A DNA stretch of 64,000 bases from Pseudidiomarina piscicola (GTDB taxonomy: Bacteria; Pseudomonadota; Gammaproteobacteria; Enterobacterales; Alteromonadaceae), in assembly GCF_902806985.1 (NCBI RefSeq), contig NZ_CADCXY010000001.1:62001-126000 (forward strand), given 5' to 3'. The notes under the pieces were generated by a model. That model saw only the letters and a program-made list of their open reading frames with translations, did no database searches and had not been told where the DNA came from. Position numbers and translations under genes: made by a program. Shown piece after piece: positions 42,838 through 55,226 of the stretch. Within the stretch, counting starts at the first letter, position 1; each line of letters opens with the position of its first letter.

Positions 42838-45471
42838 ATGGCAAAATCGCTAGTTATTGTCGAGTCGCCGGCCAAGGCGAAGACCATTAATAAATATTTA
42901 GGCAACGATTTCGTAGTTAAATCGAGCGTTGGCCACGTGCGTGACTTACCCACTCGAGCTACAGTGGAAGTTGCTAAGAAGTCGCCAGCGGAAGTTCGGA
43001 AGATGTCGCCAGAGGCGAAAGAAGCCTATCGTCAAGAACGTGAGTTTCGCAAGCTGGTGGTGCGTATGGGGATTGATCCTGAGCACAACTGGGATGCCCA
43101 TTACGAAGTTCTGCCGGGTAAAGAAAAAGTCGTTAATGAATTACAGAAGCTAGCCAGCAAGGCAGATGCGATTTATCTCGCAACGGATTTGGACCGCGAA
43201 GGGGAAGCTATTGCATGGCACCTGCGGGAACTTATTGGTGGTGAAAGTGAGCGTTTTCGTCGGGTGGTTTTTAATGAAATCACAGAAAATGCGATTCAAG
43301 AGGCGTTTTCAGAGCCCGCAAGCCTGAATATAGATCGGGTTAATGCCCAACAGACTCGGCGCTTCTTAGACCGCGTGGTCGGCTTTATGGTTTCGCCTTT
43401 GTTGTGGAAGAAAATTGCCCGCGGCCTTTCTGCTGGGCGCGTCCAGTCGGTTGCAGTGCGTTTGGTTGTTGAGCGGGAGCGAGAAATCAAAGCCTTTGTG
43501 CCAGAAGAGTATTGGGACATCTACGCCGACTTGACCACCGAACAGCAAGCCGCCGTGCGCATGCAGTTGGCGAAGCACTTAGGTAAAACCTTTAAAGCGA
43601 CCAACAAAGAGCAAGCGCAACAGGTTGTTGAGGCCTTGCGAAAGGCTAAGTTTGAGGTGGTTAACCGCGAAGACAAGCCTACGAGTAGTCGTCCGTCGGC
43701 ACCTTTTATTACCTCCACCTTGCAACAAGCGGCCAGTACGCGGCTTGGCTTTGGCGTGAAGAAAACCATGATGTTGGCCCAGCGTCTCTACGAAGCTGGT
43801 CACATTACTTACATGCGTACCGACTCAACGAACCTTAGCGGCGAAGCAGTTGCAACCTGCCGTGACTTTATCAATAAAGAGTTTGGTAAAGACTATTTGC
43901 CAGAAAAGCCCAACCGCTATGGCGCCAAGAAAAACGCACAAGAAGCGCACGAAGCGATTCGTCCATCGAGTGTCAAAGTTCGCTCTGAGCAACTGAAAGA
44001 CATGGAACGCGATGCTCAGCGTTTGTATGAATTGATTTGGCGGCAGTTTGTTGCCTGTCAGATGACTCCGGCACGCTATGACGCGACCACTATTACGGTC
44101 GCTGCCAGTGATTACGAGTTGAAAGCGCGAGGCCGCGTGATGCGCTTTGCGGGTTGGACAAAGGTTCAGCCACCGGCAAGTTCGAAAAGCGCCGAAGACG
44201 CAACCTTACCGGATGTGAAAAAGGGTGATCACCTGAACTTAAAGGACATCGACCCACAGCAACACTTCACCAAACCGCCAGCGCGTTTCGGCGAAGCTTC
44301 ATTGGTAAAAGAATTAGAAAAACGTGGTATCGGTCGGCCGTCGACCTATGCCGCAATCATTTCCACGATTCAAGATCGTGGTTATGTACGCGTCGAAAAC
44401 CGTCGCTTCTATGCGGAAAAAATGGGTGAAATAGTTAACGACCGACTGGTTGAAAACTTTGCGCGCTTGCTTAACTACAATTTCACTGCGGAAATGGAGC
44501 AGGCCTTGGATGACATCGCCGAGGGCAACCGTGAATGGAAAGAAACCCTAGACGCATTCTATGCCGAATTTTCCGATAAGCTTGCGCAAGCAGAAATGCC
44601 TCCGGAAGAGGGCGGTATGCGTGGCAATGAAATGATACTCACGGATATCGATTGCCCTAAGTGTGGCCGTAAAATGGGTATTCGCACCGCATCTACCGGG
44701 GTATTCCTGGGGTGCTCGGGTTACGAACTACCGCCAAAAGAACGTTGTACGCAAACCATCAATTTGCTACCGGGCGAAGAAGCGGTAAAAGTCACCGATG
44801 AGGACGAAGCCGAGACCGAAGCGTTACGAGCCAAGAAGCGTTGCCCTGAGTGCGGTACAGCAATGGACAGTTACCTTATCGATAAAGAACGCAAGCTGCA
44901 CGTCTGTGGTAATAATCCAGCGTGTCCTGGCCAGTTAGTCGAGCAAGGTGAGTTCCGTATCAAAGGCTATGATGGGCCAGTACTCGAGTGTGATCGTTGT
45001 GGCAGTGACATGCAGTTGAAAACCGGGCGTTTTGGCAAGTACTTCGATTGTACCAATGACGATTGCAAAAACACCCGGAAACTACTTAAAAGTGGCCAGC
45101 CTGCGCCACCGAAAGAAGATCCCGTGCCGTTTCCAGAGTTGCCATGTGAAGACTCCAAAGCACACTTTGTGCTGCGTGATGGCGCCTCGGGCGTATTTCT
45201 ATCGGCCAATACTTTTCCCAAGTCGCGTGAGACTCGAGCGGTAAAAGTTGCTGAACTGAAGCGCTTCAAAGATCGCATTCCGAAAAAGTTCTATTATTTA
45301 GCTGATGCTCCGACCGAAGACAGCGCTGGCAATGAAGCCATTGTGCGTTACAGCAGAAAGCAGAAAGAACAGTACGTGATCACCGAAGAAAACGGTAAGC
45401 CTACCGGTTGGCAGGCCCATTACCGTGATGGCGAGTGGGTCGAAAAGGAAACCAAAAAACGTAAGAAATAA
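42838..45471 (+). CDS. topA: DNA topoisomerase I
   Basis: TopA relaxes negative supercoils by single-strand passage. The 877-residue protein has the Toprim domain ([19 protein letters not shown] and the metal site [15 protein letters not shown]), the active-site Tyr in [10 protein letters not shown] near residue 325, and a C-terminal set of Cys4 zinc ribbons ([25 protein letters not shown]). The C-terminus ends in a basic KKRKK tail. The length matches gamma-proteobacterial TopA (about 865). A new operon (type IVb pilus genes) begins 104 bases after it. Confidence 0.98.
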
Positions 45472-45575: not shown

Positions 45576-45983
45576 ATGTTTTTGTTCTCTACATGGACAT
45601 CAGTCCTATGGCGCATCGTCGCAAGCAGTCTGTTCTTTAGCTGCTTGTCGGCGACGCCAGCTTACGCTCAGCAAAGCTGCCCACCCTTTAGTTTCGATTC
45701 GGCGCCACCAGTAGCAACCGAACGCGCCACTAATAAGGTTACCTTTGAGTTACAAGCGGGCTTACTCAAGCCGCAAATTGAGCGTCTGCTCGCCCGCCAC
45801 TTTGATGTGCAAGAACTTGATTGGCAGGCCTCTCCGCATTATCGCTGGTCGACGGACTTTACCTTAACGGCGGCGAACTGGGACCTTGCACTTGAAAAGC
45901 TGTTAACCCCCTATCAGCTACACCTCACCCTCTATGCGAATCATTCTGCTGTCGTTCGTGCCAACGCTGGAGCACGGCCATGA
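45576..45983 (+). CDS. TcpQ/PilL-like exported protein (first gene of the type IVb pilus operon)
   Basis: A 135-residue protein with a signal peptide (cleavage after ATPAYA) and a C-terminal region resembling the TcpQ C-terminal domain that works beside the secretin in type IVb pili: ALEKLLTPYQLHLTLYANHSAV at the end and a LLARHFDVQELDW segment before it. GGAGG lies 6 bases before the ATG. Its stop overlaps the start of pilN (ATGA). The identity is inferred from position and a modest sequence resemblance. Confidence 0.65.
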   Translation: MFLFSTWTSVLWRIVASSLFFSCLSATPAYAQQSCPPFSFDSAPPVATERATNKVTFELQAGLLKPQIERLLARHFDVQELDWQASPHYRWSTDFTLTAANWDLALEKLLTPYQLHLTLYANHSAVVRANAGARP

Positions 45984-47488
45984 ACCTATGGCGGGGCGTC
46001 GGCAGCCTGACCTTGACGATACTGTTGCTCAGTTGCAGTGCGGCGCCTGAGCCGCAGCAACTTGCGCAACGCCAAGCGCGCGCACTTGCCGAGTTAGCGC
46101 AGTTAGCAGCCCCCGCAACCACGGACTCAATCGCCGGCACTGTCAGGCGCACAGAACAACTTTATGTACCGCAAAGCGCTGACATAGCTGCGGATCTGCC
46201 GGCATGGTACAGCAAGCCGGTCAACATTAATGCCAAAGGCGTCGCCCTCGAAGATTTGCTAGCGGATGTGTTTGCCGATCTGCAGCTGAGTATCACCTAT
46301 AGCGACACGGAGTTACGGCAACAGCCGGTGCAGCTCAACTTTGCTGGCGCCCGTGGTGTCGTTTTACAACGCTTGGCAGCGCAGTTTGATTGGTATTTAG
46401 AAATGACTGAGCACAGTATTCGTTGGAGTCGTTGGCGCACAGCAGAATTTGACGTGGCGTTTATCGCTGGGGCCAGTGACTTCTTTATGGGAAATAAAGA
46501 ACGGCGACAACAGCAAGCGAATCAGGGTACCGCGCAACCACGTGCAGCGATGCAAGAAAGTAGTGATCAATTCAGTAATTTTAGCCATGCAAACTTAAGC
46601 GTCTGGGATGATTTACAACGGGCCCTTGGTTTATTGCTGTCAGAGCAGGGAGTGTTGAGCATCAACCAAAGCTCGACCTCAGTGTTAGTGAAAGATCGAC
46701 CGCGCCATGTTGCGCAGATAGAAGCCTATCTTAGTCAACAAAACGAACGTCTAACGCGCCAAGTGGCCATCGAGGTGCGCATTGTCGAAGTGAGCTTTAG
46801 CGATGAAGATCAACTGGCCATTGATTGGCAGGCACTGGCTCAAAGTGCCGGAGGGAATGCCGTCGTGGGGCTCGCCAGTGGGCCTCTTAATGACCTCGGC
46901 GAAGCCTTGGGCGGGCAATTGTTTTGGCAACGTCAAAGCGGCCGTGCGGCAGGCTCTGAGGTGTTTATTGAAGCCTTGCAACAACAAGGTTTAGTGACCA
47001 TTAATAATCAGCCTCGCTTACTGGGGTTAAACAATCAAATTGCGAAAATTGCGCTGCAAGACAACGCCACCTACTTAGCTGCAGCGAGTACCACCAATAC
47101 ACTGAATGTTGGCGCGACGACAAACTTAGAGCCAGGTATTGTGACCACCGGGTTTGAGCTTTATGTGTTGCCCAGTATTCGTGAAGATGAAGTCATTTTG
47201 CAATTATCGACCGAGCTTTCTGACTTACTGCGGATCGACGAAGTGCGCTCCGGAGAACAACTCATCCAAACGCCCCATACCAATCGCAAACAGTTCTTTA
47301 TGCAAGCGGTAGTGGGTGATGGACAAACGCTATTGTTGTCAGGTCTGCGTAATGAACGTGAGCAACTAACCGAGCAGCAGTCGTGGCTAAGCTTTTTGTT
47401 GGGCGGAAAGCAACAGCAGCAGCGCCACCACAGCGAAACTCTGGTACTGCTAACACCGACCATAGTGCGTCGTGGGGTGGCGCAATGA
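45980..47488 (+). CDS. pilN: Type IVb pilus lipoprotein secretin PilN
   Basis: A 502-residue outer-membrane secretin. The N-terminal signal peptide ends in LLLSC, a plausible lipobox, as in R64 PilN, which is a lipoprotein. A short N-domain (about 60-150) precedes the secretin core, which includes VAIEVRIVEVSFSDEDQLAIDW, LEPGIVTTGFELYVLPSI, TPHTNRKQFFMQAVVGDGQTLLLSG and a final ETLVLLTPTIV strand. It forms the pore through which the pilus leaves. Its stop shares bases with the start of the next gene. Confidence 0.88.
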   Translation: MNLWRGVGSLTLTILLLSCSAAPEPQQLAQRQARALAELAQLAAPATTDSIAGTVRRTEQLYVPQSADIAADLPAWYSKPVNINAKGVALEDLLADVFADLQLSITYSDTELRQQPVQLNFAGARGVVLQRLAAQFDWYLEMTEHSIRWSRWRTAEFDVAFIAGASDFFMGNKERRQQQANQGTAQPRAAMQESSDQFSNFSHANLSVWDDLQRALGLLLSEQGVLSINQSSTSVLVKDRPRHVAQIEAYLSQQNERLTRQVAIEVRIVEVSFSDEDQLAIDWQALAQSAGGNAVVGLASGPLNDLGEALGGQLFWQRQSGRAAGSEVFIEALQQQGLVTINNQPRLLGLNNQIAKIALQDNATYLAAASTTNTLNVGATTNLEPGIVTTGFELYVLPSIREDEVILQLSTELSDLLRIDEVRSGEQLIQTPHTNRKQFFMQAVVGDGQTLLLSGLRNEREQLTEQQSWLSFLLGGKQQQQRHHSETLVLLTPTIVRRGVAQ

Positions 47489-48675
47489 GCGACTTTTGGC
47501 TAATTGATGGTTGGCGACAACAAAGTCGTACCACTCGAGACATCGACAATTACCTGCAACAAGCTAAGCAACGTGGTTTTAAAGGTTATGTTGTAGGTCG
47601 TCAGGGGCGCACTTACTGGTTAGCATGCGGCAGTGATGCTTTAACCAGCCCTACCCATGATGCTGCACTCTGTGTGCGGAACCATTTTAAGAAGTTAAAG
47701 CAAGCGGTTTACCTGAGCTTGTGGCAGGGAATGATTGTTTGTATTGCCTGGCAGGGTGAGCGGTTACAGCATTGTTTGAGCTGTCCGCACGATACCGACG
47801 GCATGTTGCAACTAGAGCTGGTGCTGCAGCGTATTAAACGTCAGGCCGAGGCACAGGCCACGGTGTTGATCGCCAAACAAACACCGACGACCTTGGCTGA
47901 GTTTTGTCAACAGCAGTTAGCGCAATGGCAACTGCTGCTTGAACAGCCACAGTTACGAGATTTAAAACCCACCGCCGCGTTGCAGTTGCGCTCATTGCAA
48001 CAGTTGCCACCATGGCAGCGTCGGCAACGTATTTGGACCAGTTGTTTGTTACTTATGCTAGGTGGTGCTGCCAGTGCTTGGTATCTATGGCCGCAATTTG
48101 AAGCGCCACCGAACGAAGTAGTGCAACGCCGATTGGCGCCACCGCCAGGTACGGCGGTGCAGTTATTAGAGCAGTTGCCGCAATTGTTTGCTGGGTTCGA
48201 ACATTTCGCAGGTTGGCAATGGCGCTCAGCGCAACTTCAAGGGCAAAGTTTACAGGCCATCGTGGTTGCTAGCTATGGCCGTGATGATGAGCTCGGTAGC
48301 CAGTTACCGGCCGGTTGGCAACATCAGGAGCAAGCGCAACAAGTCGTACTGACACGCGCTGTTGTAAGCCATGAGTTAGACCTATCGAGCCCGGCGCCTG
48401 AAACAACGTGGTTGATCGAAGGCCAGCGCTATTTTCCACAGCTGAGTATCAGCCGGGTGCAGTCCAATCAGAATACCGATTACCGCTGGCAACAGTGGCA
48501 ATTAACCTTGCCGACAACGACCTTGACGGAACTTACTCGCTTGGCCGCATTGCTGCAGCAGCCCAATCTGCGTATTGCCGCGTTGAAGTTACAAAATGGT
48601 AAACAGCTAACCGCACAAATTACACTACGCCTTTATGAACCTTTACCGTTAACACAAGGAGAAGCGAACTCATGA
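47485..48675 (+). CDS. pilO2: Type IVb pilus inner-membrane protein PilO2
   Basis: The 396-residue reading is chosen because its ATG overlaps the pilN stop (ATGA) and gives MSDFWLIDGWRQQ; a longer in-frame ORF reaches into pilN. It has a cytoplasmic N-terminal domain (about 1-185), one membrane helix near 190-208 (LLLMLGGAASAWYLWP) and a periplasmic domain. This is the layout of R64 PilO and the PilO2 family, which link the cytoplasmic ATPase to the secretin. It is not homologous in detail to Pseudomonas PilO. Confidence 0.78.
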   Translation: MSDFWLIDGWRQQSRTTRDIDNYLQQAKQRGFKGYVVGRQGRTYWLACGSDALTSPTHDAALCVRNHFKKLKQAVYLSLWQGMIVCIAWQGERLQHCLSCPHDTDGMLQLELVLQRIKRQAEAQATVLIAKQTPTTLAEFCQQQLAQWQLLLEQPQLRDLKPTAALQLRSLQQLPPWQRRQRIWTSCLLLMLGGAASAWYLWPQFEAPPNEVVQRRLAPPPGTAVQLLEQLPQLFAGFEHFAGWQWRSAQLQGQSLQAIVVASYGRDDELGSQLPAGWQHQEQAQQVVLTRAVVSHELDLSSPAPETTWLIEGQRYFPQLSISRVQSNQNTDYRWQQWQLTLPTTTLTELTRLAALLQQPNLRIAALKLQNGKQLTAQITLRLYEPLPLTQGEANS

Positions 48676-49130
48676 TTGAATTTAGTTTTGTGATAATGGT
48701 CATGGCTGGTTGGTCAAATGACCTTGCGGTTCCTGCAACCAACACGCCGTTGCAACAGCAGCTTAAGCAGGTCAGTGAGTTGCGCATTGAAGAATTAGAG
48801 GAGTTAAAGTCAGCGGCGCAGGTTCGTAGGTTACAGCACCAACTTCAGGTGGCGCAATTGCGGCAACAGATCACCGAGGTCACCACCGGCCAGGTGACGG
48901 CAACAGGCCCCCAGCCCAGCACTAGCCATGGGCTTGATAATGTGAACTTGCTCAGTGTGGTACGCAACGGGCAACAGGTAACCATATGGCTGCAACGCGG
49001 TGAAAAACGCTTTAGCGTGCAACCGAATCGTAGCAATGGTGAACAACTGCAGGTGCAGCTACAGCGCGACGAATTAATTTTGCGCCAGGCTGGCGAGCAG
49101 CGCCGTTTTTACTTGCAAGGAGATTGGTAA
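48672..49130 (+). CDS. pilP: Type IVb pilus biogenesis protein PilP-like
   Basis: A 152-residue protein with an N-terminal hydrophobic segment (FSFVIMVMAGWS), a coiled coil (about 30-70, rich in Leu/Gln) and a small C-terminal beta domain (VNLLSVVRNGQQVTIWLQRGEKRF). This matches the PilP family of IncI1/TcpD-type systems, which has an SVxGxxG-type strand. The coiled coil should contact PilO2. Start overlaps pilO2 stop (ATGA). Confidence 0.72.
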   Translation: MIEFSFVIMVMAGWSNDLAVPATNTPLQQQLKQVSELRIEELEELKSAAQVRRLQHQLQVAQLRQQITEVTTGQVTATGPQPSTSHGLDNVNLLSVVRNGQQVTIWLQRGEKRFSVQPNRSNGEQLQVQLQRDELILRQAGEQRRFYLQGDW

Positions 49131-49131
49131 C

Positions 49132-50532
49132 ATGCGCTACATCACGCCAACGGAATGGCAAGAAGTGTCCGCTGACCAGCACTATTTGAATGAGTGCTTG
49201 GCCATCACCGAACAACAGAATGAAAGTGATACGGCAGTGGTAGTGACCGCCGACGGTTGCCTCATAGCGACCGCAGAGGCTTGGCAGCATGCCTCGTTGG
49301 CACTGCTCAATTTAAAAGTAGAACTGCAAGCTCGCCAACAATTTCGCACCAGCTTGCTTGGCGAAGTACGTGATGTGCGAAGTTTTCTCCATGATGCTGA
49401 AGCAAAGCGCCAACAGCAACAGCAGCAAGCAGGGGCTGCCAGGCCGTTTGACCGAACTCGAGCCCAGCTTGCGTTAGAAGATCTCATTTCCCAAGCATTG
49501 TTGTTGGGCGCGTCGGACATTCACTTAGTGTTTGATCCACAACGGGCAAGTTTGGCGTTTCGCGTGCATGGCTGCATGGTAGGGCATGTCGAGCGCTCCC
49601 GTGAAACTCTAGCGGCAGCTATCGCCGCAGCGCTGAATACGCGTTCGGATGACTTTCATGAACTATTCGATGAGCAACGCTTGTCGAGCGCGAGTATCAA
49701 TGTAGTGGTGATGCAGCATGGCGAGCCGCAACGCTTGCGTTTACGGGTGCAAAAATCACCGACCCGAAATGGCTTCGCGGTGACGATGCGATTGCAGCTT
49801 GAACGTCAATCTATTCAACGTTTTACTGAGCTGGGCGCAAGCGCAGAGCTGATCGCTAAACTTAGCATTGCGCTGGAACAGGCGAACGGTCTGTTGATTA
49901 TTGTGGGGCCTACGGGGCAAGGCAAAACCACCAGTTTAGCGGCGCTTAACTTAATGATTCCACCAGATCATAAAATCATTTCACTGGAAGACCCGATTGA
50001 AATTATCCAACCACATATTGAACAAAAGCCGGTGGCAGTTGATCACCCCGAGCTGAACTTTGCCAACATGGTTAAAGTGGCTTTGCGTGAAGACCCCGAT
50101 GTGATCTCAATCAGTGAAATTCGTGACGCGAAAACCGCCCAAGCGGCGTACACGGCCGCCTTAACCGGTCATCTGGTGACCGCAACCTTGCATGCACATG
50201 ACTGCTTCGGGGCGTTGCAGCGGTTAAATGACTTGGGACTGACAAATCGTGTACTTGCACAGCAGGGCGTGCTCTGTGGTGTGTTAGCTCAGCGGCTGGT
50301 AAAGCAAGTGTGTCAGCACTGTCAGGGGCAGGTTCCGGCTAGTGGTTGCAGCGGCTGTCAGAATAGTGGGGTAGGCCAGCGTCGGTTGGTGACTGAGTTT
50401 TTAGAGGTGACCGGCGAACTTTGTAACGCCTTACGCAACGATGAACTTGATAACTACCGCATGGAGTTACAACAGCGTGGTTGGCGCACATTGACACAGC
50501 AACTGCAGGCGGAGGATCTATGTCAGGTTTGA
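49132..50532 (+). CDS. pilQ: Type IVb pilus secretion ATPase PilQ
   Basis: A 466-residue GspE/PilB-superfamily ATPase. The Walker A motif GPTGQGKTTS lies near residue 260, the Asp box is ISLEDPIE, the Walker B-like segment is PDVISISEIRD and the His box is LVTATLHAHD. A short tetracysteine zinc motif, C-x2-C-x8-C-x2-C, lies near residue 395-410 (CQHCQGQ then CSGC). The protein powers pilin extraction and assembly. It is the only ATPase in the cluster, so a retraction partner would have to be encoded elsewhere. Confidence 0.9.
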   Translation: MRYITPTEWQEVSADQHYLNECLAITEQQNESDTAVVVTADGCLIATAEAWQHASLALLNLKVELQARQQFRTSLLGEVRDVRSFLHDAEAKRQQQQQQAGAARPFDRTRAQLALEDLISQALLLGASDIHLVFDPQRASLAFRVHGCMVGHVERSRETLAAAIAAALNTRSDDFHELFDEQRLSSASINVVVMQHGEPQRLRLRVQKSPTRNGFAVTMRLQLERQSIQRFTELGASAELIAKLSIALEQANGLLIIVGPTGQGKTTSLAALNLMIPPDHKIISLEDPIEIIQPHIEQKPVAVDHPELNFANMVKVALREDPDVISISEIRDAKTAQAAYTAALTGHLVTATLHAHDCFGALQRLNDLGLTNRVLAQQGVLCGVLAQRLVKQVCQHCQGQVPASGCSGCQNSGVGQRRLVTEFLEVTGELCNALRNDELDNYRMELQQRGWRTLTQQLQAEDLCQV

Positions 50533-51557
50533 AGACATCGTTGAAGCGTGCGAATCAATTGGCCTTAATTGAGGATATTGCGTTGGCCATTGGCGACGGA
50601 CTTTCAGTTGCACAGGCGTGTCAGGAGCTACAGCAACATGCAATGCAGCAAGGTTTAAAGCGTGAACAACGTGCCATCGAGGCAATGCAGGGAGCCGTAT
50701 TTAGCGGTGTACCGATGGCAACGGCCATGCAGCAGTGGTTCGCTAACGATTTGTGTATGTTGGTGAGTATTGGTGAGCGTAGCGGTTTGCTCGATCAACT
50801 GGTTGCCGCCCAGCGCCAGTTCGAGCAACAAAGAGCGGCGGCGATTCAAGGCTTCTGGCGGCCGCTGATTTACCCTTTTTTAATGCTGCTGATAACGATG
50901 TTTGCTTGCTATGCCGTCGGCCAAAACGTCATGCCCAAACTGGCAGGTGGCTTACCAGAACTGCATTGGCCGGTACTCAGTCACTATTTATTAAACCTGA
51001 GTTCGGGCCCCTGGCTACCGCTTCTGGGCTTGGTGTTGATAGTGGTGCTGGTGGTGACGTGGGGGCCGTATCCGTTGATTGATCTACGGCGTGCTGGTTG
51101 GCGCTGGAGCGCGGCACGAGGAGCCTTTGTGATCCGCCGCTATTTTGATGGGGTGCTGTTATTGCAATCGCTGACCGTGTTACTGCGGGCAGGCACGCGG
51201 CTCGACCGTGCGTTACAGGCAATGCAGGAGTATGGCGCAGGCTCGTTAGCTTACGCCTTACCAGAATTGCGGCAACGACTTGCCAATGGCGAGCGCCGCC
51301 TAGTGGCGATTCTTGATTGCGGACTCCTATCACCAAGAATGCTTTTTAGGCTTAGCAATGGCAGTCGTAATGCGACCGAACATGGCACCTTACAGCGAGT
51401 TGCCCGCTATGCAGCGGCGGATGCGGTAGCGGCGTTGCGGCGTTTACGGGTGACGCTACAGGCGTGTTGCTATGCACTTATTTTAGGATTGCTGTTGGTC
51501 ACTGTCGGAGGCATGGGCAGTATGCTGATGGCCGTGACCCAGCAGCATGTTCGTTAA
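50520..51557 (+). CDS. pilR: Type IVb pilus platform protein PilR (type II secretion F family)
   Basis: The 345-residue platform protein starts at the ATG after a GGAGGA site inside the end of pilQ. Two T2SSF domains (about 15-130 and 215-330) enclose membrane helices near 125-145, 175-195 and 315-335. The SIGERSGLLDQLVAA and LLLQSLTVLLRAGTRLDRALQA motifs are diagnostic. It forms the inner-membrane centre of the assembly machine and recruits PilQ. Confidence 0.87.
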   Translation: MSGLKTSLKRANQLALIEDIALAIGDGLSVAQACQELQQHAMQQGLKREQRAIEAMQGAVFSGVPMATAMQQWFANDLCMLVSIGERSGLLDQLVAAQRQFEQQRAAAIQGFWRPLIYPFLMLLITMFACYAVGQNVMPKLAGGLPELHWPVLSHYLLNLSSGPWLPLLGLVLIVVLVVTWGPYPLIDLRRAGWRWSAARGAFVIRRYFDGVLLLQSLTVLLRAGTRLDRALQAMQEYGAGSLAYALPELRQRLANGERRLVAILDCGLLSPRMLFRLSNGSRNATEHGTLQRVARYAAADAVAALRRLRVTLQACCYALILGLLLVTVGGMGSMLMAVTQQHVR

Positions 51558-51593
51558 AACGTGGCAGTAAATAATCAACATGGAGTGTTAAAA

Positions 51594-52034
51594 ATGAAGA
51601 AACAACAAGGTTTTACCTTTATTGAAGTGCTCACCGTACTAGGCATTATTGCACTAGCGACGATTGGAACATTAGCTGTGCGCGATTGGGCGGTGGGAAA
51701 TTCGCGGGTGAGTGAGGCCAAAAATCAAATTATAACGGTGCAAGCGGGAGCGCAGTTATGGCGCCCGCGCAGCGGAGACTTTACCGGTATTACCATGAGC
51801 TCAATGTCTGCCATTGCGGCGGTACCTGAGGCATGGGGAGATGGTGCTGGCATCAACCCATGGGGAGGTGCCATTGCGGTCGAAGCTGACCTAAGTGATT
51901 CCACACATTATGTAGTGACTATGTCAGGAATCGCTCAAGATGGTGAAGGGGCGCGTCTAGCTCGTGATTTCACCGACTATACCATCGATAGCAGCTATAC
52001 CTCGGGCACGCTGACGCTGCGCTTTCAGGGATAG
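51594..52034 (+). CDS. pilS: Type IVb prepilin PilS-like (major pilin candidate)
   Basis: The 146-residue protein begins MKKQQG|FTFIEVLTVLGI, a classical prepilin leader with a six-residue leader, cleavage after Gly, Phe+1 and Glu5, followed by the hydrophobic assembly helix. A GGAG site 8 bases before the ATG fixes this start. Mature length is about 140, like IncI1 PilS. The body contains ARDFTDYTIDSSYTSGTLTLRF. It is the best candidate for the main pilus subunit. Confidence 0.82.
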   Translation: MKKQQGFTFIEVLTVLGIIALATIGTLAVRDWAVGNSRVSEAKNQIITVQAGAQLWRPRSGDFTGITMSSMSAIAAVPEAWGDGAGINPWGGAIAVEADLSDSTHYVVTMSGIAQDGEGARLARDFTDYTIDSSYTSGTLTLRFQG

Positions 52035-52051
52035 GGAAGGGAGGATCACGC

Positions 52052-52297
52052 ATGCAGCACAAACCCCCTATGGCTCATCAGTCTGGTTACTTACTCGTCG
52101 AGTGGGTGATTGCGGCAGCAAGTTTAGCGGGGTTTGCGCTATTGCTAATGACCTTACTACAGGCCCGCGAGCCTCAGTATCAAAGGCAACAGCTGCAGCA
52201 ACAGCAGCAACGCGATGACCATCGACAACAGCAGCGCTTACGTGACGTAAACGAACAGCGTTGGTTGCTGCAAATGCAACAAGGACCCTTAGGATGA
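52052..52297 (+). CDS. Mini prepilin-like protein with Gln-rich tail
   Basis: An 81-residue protein with a prepilin-type leader ending Gly-11 and YLLVEWVIAAASLAGF, with Glu5 and a hydrophobic helix. The rest (about residues 45-81) is very Gln/Arg rich with no globular pilin body. It overlaps the next gene by the ATGA pattern. I did not recognise a family. It might be a minor pilin that initiates assembly, or a degraded prepilin. Confidence 0.6.
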   Translation: MQHKPPMAHQSGYLLVEWVIAAASLAGFALLLMTLLQAREPQYQRQQLQQQQQRDDHRQQQRLRDVNEQRWLLQMQQGPLG

Positions 52298-53013
52298 AAC
52301 ATCGTGGCTATATTTTATTTGAGTTGGTGCTGGCATTAAGCTTGCTAGCCGGTTTACTAGTATTGAGTCAGCAATGGATGGCACGTGAACAAGCGGCACA
52401 GCAACGCAGCCATTGGCAACTGGAGGCTCATGCGCTACTGACTGCGATAGAGCAGTTTTGGCTGTCTGAAGCACGCCTACCAGAGCCGTTAAGTGAGCTA
52501 ATTACGAAAGGCTATATCGCGCAAATATGGCAACCATGGGGCGCGCCATGGCAGTTATCCACCCAGGCAAATTTGCTGCGCTTACAGACACCAGCAGCGT
52601 CGGTAAGTGAAGCAAACTGGTTAGCACAACGAATTGCCGGGGCCGACGTGAGTCACACTGGTGATTTGCGCTTGCATGTTTGGCAGCCGGCGGTGTTAGC
52701 GCTGCGAGAGCGCTACCTGCATCGTATTGAAGATCCGCAACATCCGCAGTACTCGACCATGGCGGCCGACTTAAATATGAATGGCTATAGCGTCAAAAAT
52801 GCGGGCTTGGTCGAAGCACAGTTAGTGGTTGCCCAAAGAGCGAGTGCACAACATGCTGACATTGACGACTTACGTAGCTCAAGTTTGACGGCAGCTGATC
52901 TAACTGCACAGCAAGCGATCATTGCTGGGTATGATGTTCAAAGCGTCGTAGCGCGACTCCAGCAACTAGAACAGCAATGGCAAGCCTGTCGAACGCAAGG
53001 TGGCTGTCAGTGA
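52294..53013 (+). CDS. pilV: PilV-like pilus tip protein with prepilin leader
   Basis: The start is set at the ATG that overlaps the preceding stop, giving MKHRG|YILFELVLALSLLAG, a type IV prepilin leader with Glu5. The 239-residue protein has an LNMNGYSVKNAGLVEA stretch (around residues 160-180), which recalls the DMNGxxINNAG repeats of PilV tip adhesins and of phage tail fibres. The C-terminus contains a short coiled coil. No shufflon, recombinase or alternative C-termini are visible. Confidence 0.68.
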   Translation: MKHRGYILFELVLALSLLAGLLVLSQQWMAREQAAQQRSHWQLEAHALLTAIEQFWLSEARLPEPLSELITKGYIAQIWQPWGAPWQLSTQANLLRLQTPAASVSEANWLAQRIAGADVSHTGDLRLHVWQPAVLALRERYLHRIEDPQHPQYSTMAADLNMNGYSVKNAGLVEAQLVVAQRASAQHADIDDLRSSSLTAADLTAQQAIIAGYDVQSVVARLQQLEQQWQACRTQGGCQ

Positions 53014-53726
53014 CTGGCTCTGGTTGGCGGCGCCGCCGCCGAGCGAATTCTCAATCAGGACAAGCCGCCGTTGAGGCATTAATTGTGCTGCCGGTGGTCG
53101 TGCTAACGGTATTGCTAGTGGTGCAACTATTGTGGTTAGTGTTTGCCAACGCAACCTTTCGCGTGGCTGTTAGTTACAGCCTGCGAGCCGGCAGCATAAA
53201 CCATGGCTCGCGGCTGGCGATGGAGCGCACCTTAGTAGCGGCAATGGCAAGCCTTGAGCCAGTTTGGTTTGCCGGCGAAGCGCCAGAACCAAGTCGGTTT
53301 GAGCTGCGCCGAATGCAGTTAAAGGTAACGGCCAAACAGTGGCTGCATTACCAACTGACAGGTAGGTTGCAGGTTCATCGTCCCACTGCTGAAACGTCAC
53401 GCGAGGAATCAGAGCGACGCTACGATTTAACGTCGGCGCGCTGGCTTCAGGAGCTAGCTATCGATCATGCCAGGACGCGTACGAGCCAGGCGGATGCCCA
53501 GCGTTGGCAGCGACAGCGTGAGTTAGATATTGAGGTGTGGTGGTGCCTACCGCTTGAAGTGCCCTTTGCTGCTCAGGTCCTAAGCCAGATGAAACAGTGG
53601 TGGGGCGATCCGGCTCAACGTCACTGTGCCGTGCGAGAACAACTGCTTGGCCGGCCTATGTGGGCGTTACAGCGGCGCCTAGCCGCGCCGCTGCAAAGTG
53701 GTTACCGTGAAGGGCTTAACCCTTAG
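53010..53726 (+). CDS. TadE-like membrane protein
   Basis: A GTG start overlapping the previous stop (GTGA) with an AAGGTGG site 5 bases upstream gives a 238-residue protein; an in-frame ATG at 52977 is the other option. [21 protein letters not shown] membrane segment near residue 25 is the TadE/TadG signature seen in Flp/tad pilus loci. The remainder is a soluble, Arg- and Trp-rich domain. A TadE-like protein in an R64-type operon is unusual. The 3' end overlaps the folD stop by 4 bases. Confidence 0.7.
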
Positions 53727-54825: not shown

Positions 54826-54902
54826 CGGCGAGTAGCGCAGCTTGGTAGCGCACTTGTTTTGGGTACAAGGGGTCGCTGGTTCGAATCCAGTCTCGCCGAC
54901 CA
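54826..54902 (+). tRNA. tRNA-Pro (UGG), copy 1
   Basis: A 77-base cloverleaf with acceptor stem CGGCGAG/CTCGCCG, T-loop GGTTCGAATCC and encoded CCA. The anticodon loop TTTGGGT contains TGG. It is base-for-base identical to the copy at 55150-55226. Confidence 0.97.
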
Positions 54903-54931
54903 TTTTCAGTAGTACCGCGATGTTGTACCAT

Positions 54932-55008
<77 letters not shown>

Positions 55009-55039
55009 ATTTGCCCTGGCAAGACATAACAACAGTAGT

Positions 55040-55116
55040 GGTGGCTGTAGCTCAGTTGGTAGAGCCCCGGATTGTGATTCCGGTGGTCGTGGGTTCGAAT
55101 CCCATCAGCCACCCCA
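55040..55116 (+). tRNA. tRNA-His (GUG)
   Basis: Starts with the extra G-1 that tRNA-His carries, opposite the discriminator C, then GTGGCTG/CAGCCAC. The anticodon GTG is in TTGTGAT, and the T-loop GGTTCGAATCC and encoded CCA are present. It closely follows the E. coli sequence. Confidence 0.97.
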
Positions 55117-55149
55117 TTTTTCTGAAAGTCCCCCAAAGATTTATACGTT

Positions 55150-55226
55150 CGGCGAGTAGCGCAGCTTGGTAGCGCACTTGTTTTGGGTACAAGGGGTCGC
55201 TGGTTCGAATCCAGTCTCGCCGACCA
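55150..55226 (+). tRNA. tRNA-Pro (UGG), copy 2
   Basis: Identical over 77 bases to the first tRNA-Pro. It is the last gene of the cluster. No T-run terminator was recognised after it; a 5-bp AACCT...AGGTT stem at 55257-55274 lacks a poly-T tail. Confidence 0.97.

Follow-up and report, generated by a model that had tools for sequence, protein, structure and literature searches.

The type IVb pilus operon between topA and folD

The window analyzed here is a stretch of 64,000 nucleotides of Pseudidiomarina piscicola (contig NZ_CADCXY010000001.1, positions 62,001 to 126,000), taken from a 2.51 Mb assembly of 16 contigs whose nearest named relatives are Pseudidiomarina. Between topA and folD, ten co-directional and mostly overlapping open reading frames (ORFs) occupy positions 45576-53726 and form a genuine type IVb pilus operon of the R64/Tcp-like kind, an assignment that we regard as solid. 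This operon ends with tadE, a gene for a minor pilin of the Tad type, and the present article deals with its relationship to a Tad pilus locus encoded elsewhere in the same genome, with which it has probably exchanged its last minor-pilin gene. The components of the operon and its two flanking genes are as follows.

42838-45471, plus strand: topA, which flanks the operon
45576..45983, plus strand: tcpQ/pilL-like gene, named by position; some members weakly resemble STN; retained in the genomes that lost the operon core
45980..47488, plus strand: pilN, secretin; TIGR02520 is the nearest model, below cut-off; lipoprotein-like start by eye
47485..48675, plus strand: pilO2-like gene, named by position, without family match
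48672..49130, plus strand: pilP-like gene, named by position, without family match
49132..50532, plus strand: pilQ, assembly ATPase (T2SSE)
50520..51557, plus strand: pilR, inner-membrane platform protein (T2SSF)
51594..52034, plus strand: pilS, major prepilin, leader G|FTFIE
52052..52297, plus strand: mini prepilin, leader G|YLLVE
52294..53013, plus strand: pilV, minor prepilin with a stalk and a C-terminal W..C...GGC end; candidate partner of PilVt (see below)
53010..53726, plus strand: tadE, minor pilin of the Tad type; it probably belongs to the Tad pilus whose locus is on contig C9 of this genome (G000:C9)
stop at 53723, minus strand: folD, which flanks the operon

Adjacent genes overlap at 45980, 47485, 48672, 52294, and 53010, and at the other junctions pilP and pilQ are separated by 1 base, pilQ and pilR overlap by 13 bases (the ATG of pilR is at 50520), and spacings of 36 and 17 bases separate pilR from pilS and pilS from the mini prepilin gene, respectively. 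The ORF coordinates thus agree with an earlier note on this stretch, which had described a ten-gene operon with such overlaps; because the block recurs in related genomes, its arrangement is not due to chance. The tails of tadE and folD overlap by 4 bases. Beyond folD, four consecutive tRNA genes (Pro, Arg, His, Pro) lie at 54826-55226, and in Aliidiomarina haloalkalitolerans an ORF that resembles a PIN-domain (VapC-like) gene by eye is found between tadE and folD (L106:16825-17271).

Profile searches back most of the gene names proposed in the earlier note. TIGR02520 scored best of all secretin models against PilN (202.6 bits, without reaching its curated equivalog cut-off of 287.65), and PilQ and PilR matched T2SSE (228 bits) and T2SSF (35.5 bits), respectively. 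N_methyl is found in 25/25 PilS members, PilS_N (PF08805) in 11/25 and Bundlin in 10/25, the window's own PilS matching N_methyl only. Shufflon_N (PF04917) is matched by 9/25 PilV members (best 6.6e-7), the window's own PilV not being among them, and PF07811 by 25/25 TadE members, with 25.3 bits for the window copy against a cut-off of 22.9. Models thus support the names PilN, PilQ, PilR, PilS, PilV, and TadE, some of them in related members only, whereas TcpQ, PilO2, and PilP yielded no convincing family in single-sequence Pfam and NCBIfam scans, in scans of 24-25 members each or in scans of their counterparts from relatives with larger genomes; their names reflect gene order and size alone, next to a weak STN match in 5/24 TcpQ members. 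In genome G022, the pilO2 match (L019 / L044) contains an in-frame TAG. PilS is 67-91% identical to the window's copy across 24 genus members and is, among the relatives L043-L071, better conserved than the ATPase PilQ (52-81% identity). The three prepilin leaders with Glu5 recognized earlier are present, and that of TadE (GQAAVE), assigned by eye, makes a fourth. An AlphaFold2 model of PilV (predicted local distance difference test score, pLDDT, of 83) shows a long helix at the N terminus, a few strands, a stalk of low confidence, and a further helix at the C terminus; in that of TadE (pLDDT 90), the first helix spans 58 residues and the head is of the alpha-beta kind. Neither model matched a solved structure at E<=0.001.

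It is highly improbable that a type II secretion or mannose-sensitive hemagglutinin (MSHA) locus has been mistaken for a pilus operon. GspE and GspF models do match PilQ and PilR, but all GspE, GspF, GspD, and MshL matches fall far below cut-off, the secretin reaching 69.3 bits with GspD (cut-off 351.35) and 107.6 bits with MshL (cut-off 250.2), scores on which this identity was rejected in favor of the better-fitting PilN model and hence of the R64-like assignment made earlier. Moreover, the genome has other ATPase and secretin loci: ATPase models score over cut-off at eight places, and six secretins were found. A second type II secretion-like locus (L053, G000:C3:186500-206000; names by eye) encodes pseudopilins, an ATPase, a platform protein, and a secretin; exopolysaccharide-like genes of the Yjb/Gfc kind precede it and a gene for a 590-residue secreted-looking protein follows.

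As claimed earlier, the ten ORFs include neither a prepilin peptidase nor a transglycosylase nor a retraction ATPase. Genome-wide, a single prepilin peptidase (Peptidase_A24) match lies near pilB, and a PilT/PilU pair scores over the TIGR01420 cut-off; both are outside the operon. The missing retraction ATPase had also been presented as a difference from Tcp loci, a contrast that does not hold: PMC5207764 describes the toxin-coregulated pilus (TCP) as having none either.

A fixed chromosomal site in Idiomarinaceae

The PilO2 search matched 25/26 genus genomes, that of the window included, and 0/33 others; G020, the sole genus genome missed, does have PilN. All ten genes are present at the Pseudidiomarina planktonica locus (L096). 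When the GTDB species genomes were scanned with a PilN pattern, an approach that reveals gene-bearing genomes only and to which genomes without pilN are invisible, the result was 42 loci titled Pseudidiomarina, Idiomarina, or Aliidiomarina, with one metagenome-assembled genome (MAG) titled Gammaproteobacteria. Surveying topA-folD intervals, as the earlier note had suggested, confirmed a fixed site: both genes flank the block in 40 of the 42 Idiomarinaceae loci, three of which hold a three-gene remnant, and the remaining two (L080 and L099) run off their contigs. With a threshold of E<=1e-60, PilN was found in 59/395 genomes of the GTDB family. Nine loci under another genus code (L259-L267) occupy the same place; two of these lie on contigs already counted as L112 and L111, which are titled Idiomarina.

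Seven further PilN loci come from other genera (L252-L258). A related operon is present in four of them (L252, L255, L256, and L257), while only pilN and tcpQ are clear in L253, L254, and L258, the latter being cut short. Within these seven stretches, of which just 0.8-2.4 kb past pilV is visible, neither topA nor folD nor tadE was found, tadE not even at E 10, and the TadA of the Tad locus described below is absent from the three genomes searched among the hosts of the four related operons. Two of these operons encode PilV counterparts of 637 and 688 residues (L256:13723-15636 and L257:1493-3559) that end in W..C...GCQ, a motif similar to that of the window's PilV.

In most Idiomarinaceae Tad loci, another gene occupies the tadE slot

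PF07811 has one match in the genome, the operon's TadE on contig C1, and the Tad locus lies on contig C9. The latter encodes a Flp-like protein (PF04964 match below cut-off), CpaB (over cut-off), a secretin, TadA (342 bits, below the cut-off of 373), two T2SSF proteins, a DUF192 protein, a TPR protein (tadD), a 397-residue protein without Pfam match in the place of TadG, and a 177-residue protein that is TadE-like by eye (tadE2). The earlier note had considered that tad genes elsewhere in the genome would speak against a pilus combining two families, and their presence on C9 partly bears this out.

Within the order, a TadE profile matched 17/394 genomes, and most matches cover more than two thirds of the profile. 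Fourteen of the 17 genomes are outside Idiomarinaceae, and twelve of these 14 were examined (all except G265 and G417). In 11/11 collinear Tad loci from other families, which were chosen because they have TadE, the gene order is rcpC-rcpA-tadA-tadB-tadC-DUF192-tadD-tadE, the last gene encoding a homologue of the operon's TadE; the twelfth locus (L144) is of a different Tad type, with two TadE matches before tadA. The C9 locus displays the same order from rcpC to tadD, after which a gene that we call pilVt takes the place of tadE. It encodes a 247-residue PilV-like protein (G000:C9:35595-36338, outside the window) and overlaps tadD by 4 bases. Likewise, the profile found tadE in 0/43 Idiomarinaceae Tad loci, three weak matches all being tadE2, and a prepilin-like PilVt gene follows tadD in 37/43. 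These 37 comprise 29 long forms, all of which match a PilVt profile, and 8 short forms, 3 of which do. The Tad search covered all loci but L105, and Tad loci were read in 18/26 genus genomes. In G009 (C13:23824-24961), tadA is in two overlapping pieces, owing to a frameshift or an assembly error.

TadE outlives the core of the type IVb operon

In Aliidiomarina maris, A. sedimenti, A. soli, and one MAG, the genes from pilO2 to pilV are gone and tadE directly follows pilN, which it overlaps in three of the genomes; in the MAG the gap is 9 bases and the contig ends inside tadE. Genome-wide searches found PilQ and PilS orthologues in 0/4 of these genomes, the absence being weaker for the MAG (that of L099), whose completeness is not established, and found both in the control A. 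iranensis. PilVt is missing as well, while the Tad genes from flp to tadD are kept, secretin included. The tcpQ-pilN-tadE remnant is under selection: between A. sedimenti and A. soli, the ratio of nonsynonymous to synonymous changes (dN/dS) is 0.15 for tcpQ, 0.13 for pilN, and 0.08 for tadE, compared with 0.01 for topA and 0.03 for folD. In the other pair tried, synonymous change was near saturation. Selection on the remnant fits a TadE that serves the Tad pilus.

These observations bear on the proposal of the earlier note that the operon builds a single filament combining two pilus families, of which TadE would be a genuine type IVb minor pilin. Indeed, every complete locus with an intact core has tadE after pilV (38/42 loci, as well as L259-L271), and in 13/24 genus loci, as judged from automatic start choice, the beginning of tadE and the stop of pilV share 1 or 4 bases. 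On the other hand, tadE is kept where the type IVb motor and major pilin are gone, the relatives of TadE are located in tad operons, and no tadE match lies beside the four type IVb operons outside the family over the sequence visible there. A pilus fusing two families is thus probably not what the operon encodes, and we hold a chimeric filament to be unlikely. Its homology, the slot that its relatives occupy after tadD, its absence from the tad loci of Idiomarinaceae, and its retention after core loss all argue that TadE belongs to the Tad system.

An even less likely explanation is that TcpQ, PilN, and TadE make up an independent module, in which a pore in the outer membrane is combined with a subunit of the TadE type and could be powered by a different machine, for instance Tad. 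Four genomes that lack PilQ and PilS have kept all three genes, with dN/dS values of 0.08-0.15 in one close pair; this retention reflects a single loss event, though, and tcpQ and pilN may have been kept because they stand first and carry the promoter.

PilV and PilVt vary together

The type IVb pilV profile matches the window genome's PilVt at 1.0e-10, mostly within the stalk. In the 43 genomes for which both loci were read, the lengths of the two proteins, in residues counted from the hydrophobic segment on, fall into the following classes (PilV/PilVt).

Pseudidiomarina: ~233/235
Aliidiomarina: 298-300/483-490 and 369-374/546-552
P. planktonica: 349/449
I. xiamenensis: 326/507
Idiomarina: 123-129/118-125
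Two genomes: 129-137/absent
Four genomes: absent/absent

Spearman coefficients are 0.89 (n=43) and 0.87 (n=37), values that include two spurious 49-residue PilVt ORFs (A. sedimenti and A. soli), both of which the contrast analysis counts as absent. On a species tree built by a quick method from TopA, FolD, and TadA, independent contrasts of PilV and PilVt length gave r 0.96 when absences were set to zero and r 0.95 in the 37 genomes having both, a value reached in 0/10,000 shuffles of the contrasts. Five large contrasts, all of one sign, carry the signal. Controls ranged from -0.37 to 0.51 for PilV against nine other Tad proteins and from -0.16 to 0.37 for PilVt against seven other type IVb proteins. 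A long PilV is accompanied by a long PilVt in 29/29 genomes; of the 10 genomes whose PilV is short, 8 have a short PilVt and 2 (those with a PilV of 129-137 residues) have none, Tad genes being present. The stalk itself is absent from the short forms of both proteins. Defined as the part between an L-x-M-type motif and the x..C end, with the PilVt motif picked by eye among regular-expression candidates, it could be measured in 19/29 long pairs and agrees within 7 residues in 18/19, the outlier being I. xiamenensis (167/151). The stalks are 69/69 residues in the window's genome, differ by <=3 in 11/11 measured genus pairs besides P. planktonica (187/180), and are 208-209/204-205 in six Aliidiomarina-type genomes. 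The C-terminal part of PilVt is much larger in some genomes. Finally, Glu at +5 is found in 0/37 PilVt leaders vs 35/39 PilV leaders, after reassignment of eight leaders by eye, four of each.

The length coupling, the presence of PilVt with every long PilV, and its absence from the four genomes without PilV and from two of the ten with a short PilV suggest that PilVt is part of the tip of the type IVb pilus. Alternatively, PilVt could sit on the Tad tip and PilV on the type IVb tip, their lengths tracking each other by way of a common target or of sequence exchange, without contact. The position of pilVt inside the tad operon, overlapping tadD, would suit such separate tips, as would the much larger C-terminal part of some PilVt proteins, but the six genomes that lack PilVt do have Tad genes, the other 8 short-PilV genomes have a short PilVt, and the PilVt leader is by eye closer to those of type IV prepilins than to that of Flp, a resemblance that no profile confirms. 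We consider separate tips rather doubtful.

A proposed exchange of minor pilins

The arrangement as a whole is probably best explained if the type IVb and tad loci have swapped their last minor-pilin genes, so that TadE would serve the Tad pilus in trans and PilV together with PilVt would make the tip of the type IVb pilus, a proposal drawn from sequence comparison. In an ancestor of Idiomarinaceae, tadE would have left its place after tadD to follow pilV, and a PilV-like gene, pilVt, would have come to follow tadD. The operon, the two loci, their slots, the co-variation, and the losses are seen in the sequences; the partnership of the proteins, the direction and age of the exchange, and an adhesive function are inferred. 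PilQ would power the export of PilS via the PilR/PilO2/PilP platform and through the TcpQ-PilN secretin pore, and the prepilins would be matured by the single prepilin peptidase encoded elsewhere; the operon itself has no dedicated retraction motor. TadE would still be a minor, presumably tip, pilin of the Tad pilus. The type IVb pilus would end in a stalked tip made of PilV and PilVt. Of these, PilVt, without Glu5, would be the first and most distal subunit, and the extra Cys-rich C-terminal part of its long forms may bind a surface or a cell. In a tentative extension, to which we give lower credence than to the exchange itself, PilV and PilVt would wind into a single hetero-oligomeric stalk in which their lengths match, Tad would be served by TadE and perhaps also by the TcpQ-PilN pore, and either tip would need both loci.

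Several observations weigh against the exchange. The overlap of tadE with pilV looks as though tadE were made for the type IVb pilus, and the collinear Tad loci of other families were selected on the very presence of TadE. Branch-rate co-variation of TadE, calculated on 38/43 genomes (all but UBA6142, in which topA is missing, and the four that lost the core), averaged about -0.14 with five type IVb genes and about -0.02 with ten Tad genes, in a test where the within-Tad mean is only 0.02 and TadE favors neither side. The length co-variation rests on about five events, the similarity between PilV and PilVt sits mainly in a repetitive stalk, the window genome's PilVt has no Pfam match, not even to N_methyl, and 5/8 short PilVt genes were identified by position and leader alone. 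The core-loss genomes form one clade on the tree and represent one event only. Moreover, a TadE dedicated to Tad does not explain why tcpQ and pilN were kept after core loss although the Tad locus has its own secretin.

Relation to known pili and significance

The operon shares with the R64/IncI PilL-PilV thin pilus and with Tcp/CFA-III a PilN-like secretin and, in some members, similarity to PilS_N and Shufflon_N. Its gene order N-O-P-Q-R-S-V is also that of R64/IncI and Tcp/CFA-III. It differs from these loci by its fixed chromosomal site, its terminal tadE, a second PilV-like gene at another locus, and the lack of a peptidase or transglycosylase among the ten ORFs, a prepilin peptidase within the locus being usual, not essential. 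The lack of a retraction ATPase is a trait shared with TCP, as PMC5207764 indicates. In an IncI2 plasmid pilus, PilV is a tip adhesin, according to PMC9045228. With Tad/Flp pili the operon shares a TadE that resembles, along most of the protein, TadE-family members from other families' Tad loci; unlike in those systems, the Idiomarinaceae tadE sits in a type IVb operon and not in a tad locus. In work on the Kil system, TadE-TadF-TadG complexes (TadEFG) are proposed to be the Tad tip (PMC12075869). A large minor pilin without Glu5, encoded at the 3′ end of its cluster, has been proposed in PMC5207764 as the signature of a first subunit. Like the GspK-type tip pseudopilins considered there, PilVt lacks Glu5 and is last in its cluster; its 29 long forms exceed the major pilin in size, whereas its 8 short forms do not, and its stalk sequence is PilV-like, the comparison with models being limited to Pfam. 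Neither this operon nor the exchange was described in the titles or abstract openings found in the literature, full texts being mostly outside the search.

The operon that hosts a minor pilin gene is usually taken to tell which machine the pilin serves. The evidence gathered here suggests that for one bacterial family this rule breaks down, and does so in both directions. Idiomarinaceae may offer a natural system to study how a tip subunit is directed to the right machine, whether tips can be shared or coupled between two families of type IV filaments, and how a stalk encoded by genes at two loci stays matched in length. In the tentative extension given above, making either tip would require the expression of both loci, and the two machines would be obligately linked by the tip subunits that they have exchanged.

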